Source: a virus. From it: a DNA stretch of 25,210 nt. The first letter of the stretch is position 1. Each line of letters begins with the position of its first letter. The notes beneath the pieces were generated by a model, which had not been told where the DNA came from, searched no databases, and saw only the letters and a program-made list of their open reading frames with translations. The stretch lies in the IMG/VR virus record IMGVR_UViG_3300006028_000035, positions 1-25,210 of that record. One strand, given 5' to 3'. Shown piece after piece: positions 6,998 through 10,878 of this stretch. The position numbers and the translations under genes were made by a program.

Positions 6998-8314
6998 CTA
7001 GATCATCTTCAGGACGGAGATTGCTTCAGGCAATACCACCTTGCCGCCGACACGAACGCGAGCCAGGTAAGCGACTTGGTTCTGAATGGCGAATAGTTCT
7101 TTGAGCGTCTGGAACGTCAGTCCTACGCGGTCAACGATCTGATAGCCTTGTCCGATGTCACCAAAGACGACGGGCAACTGACCGGCGGTGAAGGCGGGGA
7201 AGGTGCCGCCCTGATTGGGCATGTCGGGCATCTCGACTATTGGGCGACCGAACAGTGTCTCGCGGAACTCATCGCCAAAGACTGTCCATAAGGGGCGGGT
7301 CGTGGTGTCAGCGAACAGCCTGCATATACCAATCGTGGAGTTCGACATGAGCCACGTACCGGTTGCGCGGTAGCCCGATTTGCCAACGTGCATGAGTGAG
7401 ATCAGGTCGGAGGGCAAGAGCAGGTGCGAGGCGCTGGTACCGCTGAAAATGTTCATGCCGGTGTTTGAGAGCGCCGCATTGGTCAGAATGCCTTCAGGAC
7501 GCGCCACACCGTCACCAGAGATGAAGGCTAAACCTTCCTTCTGCGCGAATTGACGGGTGAGACGCTTGAGAATGTAGCCCTCTACGTCAAACACCGAGTC
7601 TTCCAGGTTTTGCCGGGACAGCTTGAGATAGCCGTTCAACTCACGCGCGTAAATCTCGATCATGCCTAGGTTCGGATCAGGGGATGCCTGGAAGCCGGTT
7701 TGCTCGTCAGACCAGAAGATATTAGTATCTGTGGTCCCCTCGCTCGGTATGAGTAGCTTCTCTCCCCCTATCGTCTGAGTGTCGGCATACGCGCGAAGTG
7801 GGCTTATAAGGAACAGTTTTTGAATGAACTTGTCACTTAAATCTGTCCCCGCAAAAAAACCTCCAAGTTCCGCAGCACCCGATACCATGACCTTTTGCTC
7901 AGGCGTGAACTGGTCCATGTTCATGTGGTTAAAATCCACATAGCTGCGCTCTTCCATCGTGAGCGCCTGCACATCGCCGCCCTTGCGCATCCACTTCTCA
8001 AGCGCTTTGGTGGCCGGAGGTTTATAGGAGCCGGCAGCGGAGCCACGATAGCCGTTGGTAGGCGGTGGGCGCTGCGCGGCAAGCTGCATTTCCTTTTGCT
8101 CAGCGACTAGCTTGCGATACTCTTTGATCTCAGCGTTAATTTGGTCATTGATCTTGTTGAGTTCAGCCCTTGCCTCCGCCGCGACGGGTCCACCTTGCGA
8201 GATCTTCGTCTCTGTCTTGGATTGCCGATCTTCGATGGTTTTGACGCGTTCGTCTAAGTGGCGATTGAGTCGATGTATCTGCTCTACGAGCTCTTTTACT
8301 TCCTCATAGGCCAT
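6998..8314 (-). CDS. Major capsid protein, HK97 fold
   Basis: This is a 438-aa shell protein. Residues 1-75 are charged coiled coil (MAYEEVKELVEQIHRLNRHL...), matching the delta/scaffolding domain removed by the prohead protease. A PPATKALEKWMRKG linker follows, and then the HK97 core: AAELGGFFAGTDLSDKFIQK, LISPLRAYADTQTIGGEKLL, DPNLGMIEIYARELNGYLKL, and FGRPIVEMPDMPNQ and VVFGDIGQGYQIVDR near the end. The start is ATG 8314 because a perfect AAGGAGG (8330-8324) lies 9 bases upstream; the frame stays open 19 codons further back, but through the hairpin. That ribosome binding site is inside the 3' arm of a 15-bp hairpin, so translation is probably regulated. Confidence 0.92.
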   Translation of the reverse strand: MAYEEVKELVEQIHRLNRHLDERVKTIEDRQSKTETKISQGGPVAAEARAELNKINDQINAEIKEYRKLVAEQKEMQLAAQRPPPTNGYRGSAAGSYKPPATKALEKWMRKGGDVQALTMEERSYVDFNHMNMDQFTPEQKVMVSGAAELGGFFAGTDLSDKFIQKLFLISPLRAYADTQTIGGEKLLIPSEGTTDTNIFWSDEQTGFQASPDPNLGMIEIYARELNGYLKLSRQNLEDSVFDVEGYILKRLTRQFAQKEGLAFISGDGVARPEGILTNAALSNTGMNIFSGTSASHLLLPSDLISLMHVGKSGYRATGTWLMSNSTIGICRLFADTTTRPLWTVFGDEFRETLFGRPIVEMPDMPNQGGTFPAFTAGQLPVVFGDIGQGYQIVDRVGLTFQTLKELFAIQNQVAYLARVRVGGKVVLPEAISVLKMI

Positions 8315-8484
8315 ATAAAAAAGCCTCCTTCTGTGGTGTTCAGAAGGAGGCTTTTCTGTTTGCTCTCTCACCTTCTGAACATAGTTTTGTTCTATGCCAG
8401 AAGGGTAGAAATCAGCGCCTTCACAGCGTTCTCTTCGATTGTTCTATTGTTAAACAGGGCGACTTACCGCGCCTGTTGCTCGCT
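8315..8484 (-). promoter_or_regulatory. Capsid mRNA leader with attenuator-like competing hairpins
   Basis: The minus-strand leader of the capsid gene has four interacting segments. Segment 1 (8404-8392) pairs with segment 2 (8384-8371) by CCTTCTG/CAGAAGG plus CATAG/CTATG. Segment 3 (8355-8341) pairs with segment 4 (8333-8319) in a perfect 15-bp stem AAAAGCCTCCTTCTG with a 7-base loop, ending in a T-rich tract just before the start codon. Segment 4 contains the capsid AAGGAGG. Segment 2 can instead pair with segment 3: GTTCAGAAGG (8380-8371) is a perfect 10-base complement of CCTTCTGAAC (8347-8338), which would disrupt the terminator-like stem. A possible 10-codon GTG-initiated leader peptide (8424-8392, MKALISTLLA) ends inside segment 1. 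The pairing is seen; regulation is inferred. Confidence 0.7.
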
Positions 8485-8490
8485 GCTCTT

Positions 8491-8499
8491 AGTATAACA
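8491..8499 (-). promoter_or_regulatory. Extended -10 promoter for the capsid gene
   Basis: TGTTATACT on the minus strand is an extended -10 element with no good -35. It sits just after the homing endonuclease stop (8505) and ~170 bases before the capsid start. It would give the capsid its own leader, separate from transcription through the upstream genes. The same TGnTATACT motif recurs elsewhere in the window. Confidence 0.5.
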
Positions 8500-8504
8500 C
8501 AAAA

Positions 8505-9203
8505 CTATCCAGATTTCTCTCTTCTTTTAACCCAGGCTAACTTCATGTTCTCTCGTGCTTCAGCAGACTTTGGCTTGCTCAATTTCTCAATATGTTCAGG
8601 AGACTTTGGCTTACCAAGATGGGCCTGTCTCTGTTTCTCTTTGGTTTCAGGAGTATGTTTCCTATTGAGCCTGGCCTGTCTTAACTTCTCGGCATGCTCA
8701 GGAGTACGTTTTGGTTTTTTCCTCCCAAGATGGGCCTGTCTCATAGCCTCAATAGCATTAGGCGAAAATCCTCTATCGAGAGCAGACTGTCTCATGTTTG
8801 CTCTGGCTTCAGGAGAGGCTTTCCTACCTTTCATGTTCTCAATCTCTTCAGGCGTATGTTTCCGGCCAAGATTGACAGGTCTTCCACGTGTTGGAGCACT
8901 GGCATCAAGAGCAATATTGAAACCCTTACGGCCAAATGGTTTGAGCTTGTTCAGCCAGTATTGTTCTCTATTTGTTGGGTCCAGAGGCAAGACTAGCTCT
9001 ACTACCTCAAATGTGAAGGCATCGGGGCCGTACTTATTCCAAGCATTTTGTAGATGTGGATTAGTGTGCTTATTTAGTCGAAGTAGATACCAATGTGCAT
9101 TTTCGCGTCTACGCAGATTGACCGCACTTCCAATGTAGATTTTCTTCGTGGGAATGCAGGTAATTTTGTATATACCTGCCGATGGGGGTATACTATGCTC
9201 CAT
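8505..9203 (-). CDS. GIY-YIG homing endonuclease with NUMOD3 repeats
   Basis: This 232-aa protein has an N-terminal GIY-YIG nuclease: AGIYKI (residues 9-14), KIYIGSA (21-27), Arg30-33 and catalytic Glu80 in REQYWLNKL. The rest is seven short NUMOD3-type DNA-binding repeats (TPEEIENMKG, SPEARANM, SPNAIEAM, TPEHAEKL, TPETKEKQ, SPEHIEKL, SAEARENM), each preceded by a Gly/Arg/Lys turn. It is a free-standing homing endonuclease that cuts genomes lacking it and spreads by repair. The gene is visibly more AT-rich than its neighbours and interrupts the usual protease-capsid pair. ATG 9203 is preferred; an in-frame GTG at 9215 is an alternative. Confidence 0.92.
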   Translation of the reverse strand: MEHSIPPSAGIYKITCIPTKKIYIGSAVNLRRRENAHWYLLRLNKHTNPHLQNAWNKYGPDAFTFEVVELVLPLDPTNREQYWLNKLKPFGRKGFNIALDASAPTRGRPVNLGRKHTPEEIENMKGRKASPEARANMRQSALDRGFSPNAIEAMRQAHLGRKKPKRTPEHAEKLRQARLNRKHTPETKEKQRQAHLGKPKSPEHIEKLSKPKSAEARENMKLAWVKRREKSG

Positions 9204-9315: not shown

Positions 9316-10878
9316 TCACATACCACGATTAGCATTATCAGAAGCCAGTGTCAGCGTCAAGTCATGTATCAAGGAGTGGATATCCACCTCAAGTTCTTCT
9401 TTCGTCTGCGTCGGCTCACCTTCTTCTTCTTTCTGCTCAGGCACCGGGTCGTCGTCTCCGTACACTTGATACCCTGAAAGCCGGTTTTGCCCTGATGCCG
9501 CCGACGCTGAACTGAGCACCTTCCTGATATTCATGATATGCTCATCAATACCCCCAGCCGTCTTCTTGATTTCTATGTTGTGTTTTCCGAGCGCCTCAAC
9601 CGCATTGGACAATGCCCTATGATTGGCTGCTGAGAGCACACGGCCCGCCTTCACCTCTTTGGTTTCGGGGTTGTCATCGGCTGACATCATGGACGGCATA
9701 TGACCGCTATCATCGTCATCATCGTCGGGTTGCAAGAACTCGGTCATGCCCAACTCAATACCACGCTGCACGTAGGCAAGTGCGGCTGTGCTGAACTGCT
9801 TAATCGCTTTCTGTATATCCTCTTCAGGGGTATTGCCTGTGATAAACGCCTGGAGAAATTCGTTGCGCAGTGGATACCATAATTTCCACATGCCAGCAAC
9901 CCAATCTTGTTGATTGGTTTCCATGTAACTCGTAGCGTAGTCTTTACTCCATATGTCCATCGTCGCACCTTTCTCCCACGGCGGGGTCATCTTCATTTTG
10001 CTGTAATACGAGGCTATTTTCGATTTCACTCCGTCCACATCGTCGATATTCGCGCCGCCGCGAGCGCCAGAGATCACGCCTGCACAGGCAATGATACCCG
10101 CCGGGATCGCTTTCATGCTCCCGCCTGATTTGGCGACAAACGGCATTTTGCACTGACTCATGTTTTCGGGTGGGCTTTTCTCCACCCAAAAGAAGCACTG
10201 TGCCGCCTTTGACCAGTTCACGGTATCCCCCGACGTGGCCCAGGCTTGAATGTCTTTGCGGGCCTGTCCGCCATCCCAGGAGACGCCGCGTTCGGCAAGC
10301 GGCCATGACGTTTTGCCGGATGCTGAACCTTTGGCGCTATACCCCGGCCAAAAGCGCTTTACAGTTTCGACTTGAGACAAATCATTCATAGCGAACACAA
10401 CTGCACTTCCCTCCTTGATCGCAACTTCAAGCAAGTTGCGAATAGGTCGATTTGTCGCCTCATCTTTGGTCCATTCAAGCTGAATTGCGTGATAGCCCAT
10501 GCTCTGCTTTTTCATGGTGCCCAGCTTGAAACTGCTGTAGAGTTCTCTCCCCAACTGCATATCCAGGTTGAGTTGCGTCTTGGTGTATAAGCCCTTTGGC
10601 GTCTCGTCTGCCTCGAAGATACCGCCCGGTGGCAGCTGGTTATAATCGTGGTTCCACAAGTACGGCCACAGAAAATCTAAGCCTTGTGTAGATTTTCTCT
10701 TATAGCTATCCTTGAGCGTCTGCTGAAACGCACCCTTCATCGTGCGGTCATCGCCAAAGTCGATGTTGCCGATGTAGTTGAGATAGCCCTCGATAATGCC
10801 CTGCTGGTCGTTCGTGGCTTTGATCTCACCACCACCGAGGAGATATTCCTTTTTGCGGTCAATCTTTGGTACTCTCAT
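9316..10878 (-). CDS. Prohead protease with extra domain and scaffold-like C-terminus
   Basis: This 520-aa protein has three parts. Residues ~15-175 are the HK97/U35 prohead protease: IIEGYLNYIGNIDFGDDRTM, catalytic His77 in LWNHDYNQLPPG, catalytic Ser126 in MKKQSMGYH, and the closing LLEVAIKEGSAVVFAMND. Residues ~190-302 are a module with WDGGQARKDIQAWA, AAQCFFWVEKSPPENMSQCK and IASYYSKMKMTPPW. It resembles a domain I have seen appended to prohead proteases of diverse phages and whose function I cannot name. The C-terminal third has an Asp run (384-390) and helical coiled-coil-like segments (AANHRALSNAVEALGKHNIE), consistent with a scaffold fused to the protease. ATG 10878 overlaps the upstream stop. 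Confidence 0.85.
   Translation of the reverse strand: MRVPKIDRKKEYLLGGGEIKATNDQQGIIEGYLNYIGNIDFGDDRTMKGAFQQTLKDSYKRKSTQGLDFLWPYLWNHDYNQLPPGGIFEADETPKGLYTKTQLNLDMQLGRELYSSFKLGTMKKQSMGYHAIQLEWTKDEATNRPIRNLLEVAIKEGSAVVFAMNDLSQVETVKRFWPGYSAKGSASGKTSWPLAERGVSWDGGQARKDIQAWATSGDTVNWSKAAQCFFWVEKSPPENMSQCKMPFVAKSGGSMKAIPAGIIACAGVISGARGGANIDDVDGVKSKIASYYSKMKMTPPWEKGATMDIWSKDYATSYMETNQQDWVAGMWKLWYPLRNEFLQAFITGNTPEEDIQKAIKQFSTAALAYVQRGIELGMTEFLQPDDDDDDSGHMPSMMSADDNPETKEVKAGRVLSAANHRALSNAVEALGKHNIEIKKTAGGIDEHIMNIRKVLSSASAASGQNRLSGYQVYGDDDPVPEQKEEEGEPTQTKEELEVDIHSLIHDLTLTLASDNANRGM

Follow-up and report, generated by a model that had tools for sequence, protein, structure and literature searches.

A conserved capsid gene leader in a clade of uncultured phages that looks like an RNA switch

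To our knowledge, few tailed DNA phages have been documented to control synthesis of their major capsid protein at the level of RNA. Some riboswitch leaders combine an aptamer-like conserved part and an alternative fold with a terminator hairpin that sequesters the Shine-Dalgarno (SD) sequence, and the attenuators of amino-acid operons, such as the Phe and Thr leaders, are arranged into mutually exclusive 1:2, 2:3 and 3:4 pairings. In ANTAR systems (EutV/NasR/AmiR), two small, similar hairpins lie ahead of a terminator that belongs to an alternative fold, and a protein binding both of them switches the gene on; the RNAs are recognised via hexanucleotide terminal loops bearing A1 and G4 (PMC3369931). 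The put element of HK022 acts on RNA polymerase, and its effect extends to terminators as distant as 10 kb (PMC9378689). Here, we describe a phage leader that, judged from its sequence and that of its relatives, looks like a real and new cis-regulatory RNA family and a previously undescribed RNA switch for a phage capsid gene. The mechanism class, in which exclusive RNA folds hide the SD or form a terminator, is known; what appears undescribed in the literature searched, outside which most subscription papers lie, is the sensor motif, the fact that it is repeated, and its occurrence in both coding and leader contexts upstream of a tailed-phage capsid gene.

The window, meaning the whole stretch of DNA that was analysed, is a 25,210-base virus record from a soil phage, and all features located here lie on its minus strand. 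The order of genes is prohead protease (Peptidase_S78, 9316-10878), GIY-YIG homing endonuclease (8505-9203), leader, and major capsid protein (6998-8314), the latter being of HK97 type (Phage_capsid, PF05065) with its ATG at 8314-8312. The capsid gene is the one that the leader would control, and the endonuclease is an optional neighbour outside the switch. A predicted extended -10 promoter element, TGT-TATACT, is found at 8491-8499 with the -10 proper at 8496-8491, so transcription would be expected to start near 8484, the position that an earlier note on this DNA had assumed. The -10 is conserved in 21 of 26 leaders, mostly in the extended form TGn-TATA(A/C)T-A and 18-29 nt upstream of the first of the motif hairpins described below, and five leaders are without a recognisable promoter. 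An N-terminal extension of the capsid protein from an in-frame GTG at 8371 was considered and ruled out by stop codons in relatives L004 and L007.

The earlier note had drawn attention to a perfect 15-bp hairpin with a trailing T-tract, the 3' arm of which contains the capsid AAGGAGG, and to a second hairpin upstream of it, and both are indeed present, at 8355-8319 and 8404-8371, respectively. The first is terminator-like, with 15 perfect pairs, or 17 if extended to 8357-8317, a loop of 7 and then UUUUUUAUAU. We refer to it (8317-8357) as the OFF hairpin; its 3' arm, segment 4, contains the SD AAGGAGG (8324-8330), which it would thereby also sequester. Segment 1 (CCUUCUGGCAUAG, 8392-8404) pairs with segment 2 (CUAUGUUCAGAAGG, 8371-8384), the alternative partner of which is segment 3 (8337-8355), composed of the 5' arm of the OFF hairpin (8355-8341) and the loop bases AACA that lengthen the 2:3 pairing. 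The match between segments 2 and 3, previously put at ten bases, exists and is one base longer, with 11 bases matched (8381-8371 with 8347-8337). These structures are far above chance: the predicted folding energy of the leader is -70.1 kcal/mol (z = -6.5), a stability that none of 200 shuffles reaches, and a 15-bp perfect hairpin arose in none of 3000 dinucleotide shuffles, the longest there being 12. They represent just the downstream half of a larger leader element.

A 1-2-3-4 arrangement recalls the attenuators of amino-acid operons, and a permissive Rfam scan returned just sub-threshold leaders (Phe_leader and Thr_leader), the terminator being the part that is shared. The earlier note had further proposed that a GTG-initiated 10-codon frame (8424-8392, VKALISTLLA) tips the balance between the folds. 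Such a frame is indeed present in the window, ending inside segment 1 as suits a classical ribosome-mediated attenuator. However, it is peculiar to the window, the 24 other leaders examined having retained neither the frame nor its start and stop: the start is lost, the frame is shifted, or a stop follows after 3 codons. Additionally, it has no clear SD and no run of one regulatory codon. The role of trigger is therefore unsupported, and we regard an attenuator run by this frame as very improbable. The capsid leader differs from the amino-acid operon attenuators in being without a conserved leader peptide and in controlling a phage capsid gene.

Relatives were gathered by searches with the capsid, protease and endonuclease, which yielded about 35 contigs, all from uncultured phages and with capsids 56-95% identical, and the 330 bases upstream of each relative's capsid gene were inspected. 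The earlier note had suggested looking for the leader in such places, and the arrangement, with compensating mutations, recurs in about 30 relatives; these share ancestry, and the leader and copy counts given here are not independent. The relatives also bear on the idea, raised in the same note, that the terminator of the homing endonuclease was captured as a control element. In the window, L007 and L040, the endonuclease gene ends just before the leader promoter. Nevertheless, in L005, L010, L014, L015, L022, L024 and L036 a leader of the same kind follows directly after the protease with no endonuclease in between, which refutes this reading, and the promoter sits between the endonuclease and the hairpins. 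We assign it next to no probability.

Each leader of the two intergenic types defined below, A and B, carries two or three copies of a small hairpin of the form [stem]-C-GC(G/U)-[inner]-(Y)(R)C-[stem], and a subtype [stem]-CCG-[inner]-CA-[stem] is also seen. In the window these hairpins were missed by the earlier note. Hairpin A (8477-8453) is AACAGG-C-GCGGUAAGUCGC-CCUGUU, with a bulged C followed by GCG/CGC and an outer stem that covaries in relatives. Hairpin B (8422-8400) is GAAGG-CGCU-GAUUUC-UAC-CCUUC, and its 3' arm is the start of segment 1, making it the proposed switch point. Across relatives the outer stems vary yet remain paired (CAGG/CCUG, CGGG/CCCG, CGGA/UCCG, UGGG/CCCA, GAAG/CUUC, GAGG/CCUC, GGAG/CUCC and AAAG/CUUU). 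For 42 distinct subtype-I copies, 83% of cells are paired versus 69% when shuffled, and covariation is 0.443 versus 0.187, with none of 500 shuffles as high and the signal lost when the partner is slid out of register, although the motif finder chose copies partly by pairing and permutation on them is partly circular. We therefore built a control from sequence only. Among distinct GCGCTG-N(3-12)-CTACC sites in the DNA examined, the 19 located in capsid leaders have a flanking stem of 4-8 bp, and the 10 found elsewhere have one of at most 2. In an alignment of hairpin A, linker and hairpin B from 15 leaders, both sides change at 8 pairs, a result reached by none of 500 shuffles. RNAalifold did not return hairpin B from the raw type-B alignment, an input with competing folds and shifted columns. 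The linker between A and B (about 8452-8423 in the window) is nearly invariant, ACAAC-GAATA...ACGC, and in type B its ACGC could pair with a GCGU located 3' of hairpin B, lengthening that hairpin. In the leaders of L022 and L023, three GCGCTG...CTAC hairpins with three different stems are found 60-190 nt upstream of the capsid gene, two of which are outside the switch region.

Similar to ANTAR RNAs, these are tandem, similar small hairpins that are mutually exclusive with a terminator, the 3' arm of hairpin B being shared. However, their inner parts span 4-14 nt with no constant hexaloop bearing A1 and G4; what stays constant is an internal bulge, the terminal loops differing in both length and sequence; and the output of the capsid leader includes SD masking. 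A scan of the window proteins detected no ANTAR domain. The capsid leader is like riboswitch leaders in combining a conserved part with an alternative fold and with a terminator that sequesters the SD, but its sensor is a repeated minimal hairpin and not a compact aptamer, and no Rfam family matched the window or 19 relatives at or above the gathering score.

The leaders can be sorted into three types. Type A comprises the window and 12 others, in which the 3' arm of hairpin B, CCUUCUG, serves as segment 1. In these 13 leaders the 1:2, 2:3 and 3:4 pairings are all possible, upholding the alternatives that had been described for the window, and the chain is not found in types B and C. The 2:3 pairing occurs in 13 of 13 type-A leaders; one of its pairs is switched from UA to CG in five of them and is the sole compensated pair (28 of 500 shuffles). 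The loop of the OFF hairpin is conserved as AACA or GACA, as expected if it lengthens 2:3. Type B (L003, L005, L006, L008, L012, L014, L090, L022, L015, L017 and L105) is without segments 2 and 3; here, CUACCUUCG of hairpin B directly pairs with CGGAGGUAG (a CUACC:GGUAG pairing), and a U-tract follows. In L003, L015 and L017 CUACCU has become CUACCC, and the 5' arm of hairpin B and the SD strand both change alongside. Type C comprises L028, L032, L038, L034, L029 and L030, relatives that were first read as leaderless until a covariance model revealed motif hairpins within the protease gene. These hairpins lie inside the last protease codons, with hairpin B approximately 82-95 nt upstream of the capsid gene, and no U-tract is present. 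They include GAUGA-CGCG-GUAUC-CAC-UCAUC, GCUGA-CGCU-GGAAUCUC-UAC-UCAGC and GAAGA-CGCG-GAUGUUUC-CAC-UCUUC; joined with type-A and type-B examples, the copies give a covariation of 0.896 versus 0.293 shuffled (0 of 500). Some of the type-C compensations alter the encoded residue (H, Q or L).

Throughout the clade, the 3' half of hairpin B is complementary to the capsid SD strand, which extends to all of these leaders the ribosome binding site masking that the earlier note had proposed. In type C the pairings of hairpin B with its own SD region are GGUAUCC:GGAUACC, GAAUCUCU:GGAGAUUC and UGUUUCC:GGAAAUA, and a search of the 270 nt upstream places the best complement to the SD region exactly within hairpin B at four of five type-C loci. 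For 28 leaders, complementarity between hairpin B and the SD of its own leader averages 7.75, versus 5.95 when partners are swapped (sd 0.25; maximum 6.75 of 500). As in an SD-sequestering switch, the predicted states differ in whether the SD is paired or free, and both pairings are conserved. Given that type C has no U-tract, SD masking, acting on translation, would be the output common to all types and termination an addition.

On balance, we think it probable that the capsid leader works as a bistable RNA switch with the motif hairpins as sensor, hairpin B as switch point, and a putative factor acting in trans. The two or three motif hairpins would act as the sensor, and the last of them, hairpin B, would lend its 3' half to the switch. 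In type A, a folded hairpin B would make segment 1 unavailable, so that segment 2 could pair with segment 3 and the SD strand would remain open (ON); with hairpin B open, segment 1 would take segment 2, allowing 3:4 to form and bury the SD (OFF), a state in which the U-tract could also terminate transcription. In type B the 3' arm of hairpin B, when open, would itself pair with the SD strand, and in type C equivalent masking would be provided by the hairpins within the protease coding sequence. From this topology we infer that ON corresponds to a folded hairpin B in all three types. A factor binding the conserved core would hold hairpin B folded, freeing segment 2 in type A or removing the anti-SD strand in types B and C, and capsid would be made only when that factor is present.

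The earlier note had asked for the leader to be folded and its alternative states compared, and in the window the predicted advantage of OFF over ON is approximately 23 kcal/mol (ensemble -68.4 versus -45.1). Even with hairpin B fixed, 3:4 is still favoured over 2:3 (-56.8 versus -45.1). Folding of the nascent chain places hairpin B in the minimum-energy fold for chains ending at 8393-8381, after which 1:2 displaces it as segment 2 emerges, and 3:4 forms next. Left alone, the leader would be expected to go OFF. Since ON is far less stable and 3:4 wins at equilibrium, the type-A ON state would need kinetic trapping or the binding of a factor.

So strong a default OFF fold also suits an arrangement in which the SD is masked with no dedicated ligand involved, the anti-SD pairing holding capsid translation low until it is undone by passage of the ribosome or RNA polymerase, and the hairpins merely timing the folding. 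In type C the disrupting ribosome would be the one translating the end of the protease, and the position of hairpin B there, within the last protease codons and a short distance before the capsid gene, suits translational coupling. However, the type-A and type-B hairpins are outside any conserved reading frame, yet their core is kept while the stems vary freely, which suggests recognition by something, and we consider masking of this ligand-free kind unlikely. A further alternative is a processive antitermination element that acts in cis on RNA polymerase and is followed by a simple terminator. The two tandem hairpins, with their conserved bulges and their position directly after a phage promoter, are broadly reminiscent of HK022 put (PMC9378689), but the likeness ends there: in the capsid leader, hairpin B belongs to the switch itself and overlaps with the anti-SD strand in all three types, a U-tract is missing from type C, and the element is found at one gene only. 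A put-like element is accordingly quite improbable.

For the factor-dependent switch that we favour, our best guess from the conservation of the motif is that hairpin B is stabilised when a trans-acting factor, probably a protein from the phage core or the host, binds to the motif. Such a factor remains plausible, with the conserved hairpin motif as its likely recognition site. The motif is common to type C and to all leaders of types A and B, so a common factor would be a host or phage core protein; the phage core proteins found in both groups include capsid, protease and portal, among others. A gene for a 69-aa Cys-containing (CxxCG) protein is located directly after the capsid gene (6946-6737 in the window), as is the case at 14 of 20 loci with intergenic leaders and at none of six type-C loci, and the protein has no PHROG or Pfam match above cut-off. 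We rejected it as the required factor because L015, L022 and L023 retain the motif but do not have this gene after capsid.

Sequence and covariation together establish the motif and its copies, the pairings that exclude one another, and the confinement of all of these to capsid leaders of this clade. Across the 35 contigs, a degenerate pattern finds the structured motif at the capsid leader only, with matches elsewhere being unstructured. Exact hairpin-B patterns searched across IMG/VR match this clade's capsid leaders, the remaining matches being without leader features; for the third such pattern this holds among the matches listed. The covariance model scores these leaders at about 60-77 bits for subtype I and lower for divergent leaders, and weak matches were also seen, the type-C region of L034 among them. 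No strong match was obtained at distant capsid loci, and L106, with 34% capsid identity, showed no such hairpins when inspected by eye. The GTDB genomes hold no capsid relative above about 36% identity, and the INPHARED cultured-phage records none above 60%, the best among those listed being about 30%.

A broader reading, which we offer tentatively as a possibility somewhat short of an even chance, is that this is a new protein- or ligand-sensing RNA class in tailed DNA phages, in which tandem bulged hairpins would be read by a phage factor, perhaps one of capsid assembly, that times capsid synthesis, the sensor being kept while moving between coding sequence and leader with three topologies of SD masking. 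A whole clade retains one sensor motif upstream of its capsid genes, whereas the lock on the ribosome binding site has been rebuilt in three ways, one of them inside the upstream coding sequence. This sensor-lock logic is open to simple reporter testing, and may provide a route to a phage or host RNA-binding factor.

The homing endonuclease of the window has its own extended -10 (TGTGGTATAATG) within 9284-9204, and a hairpin in that leader, GGCUGG-CG-AUG...CAU-C-CCAGCC, recalls the bulge of the capsid motif and is not matched by model R1. Related GIY-YIG genes are located between protease and capsid in the window, L007, L013 and L040, and upstream of the protease in L005, L006, L012, L014, L025 and L033. 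Given their presence at two sites of the head-gene cluster, it seems likely that the cluster is a repeated homing target.
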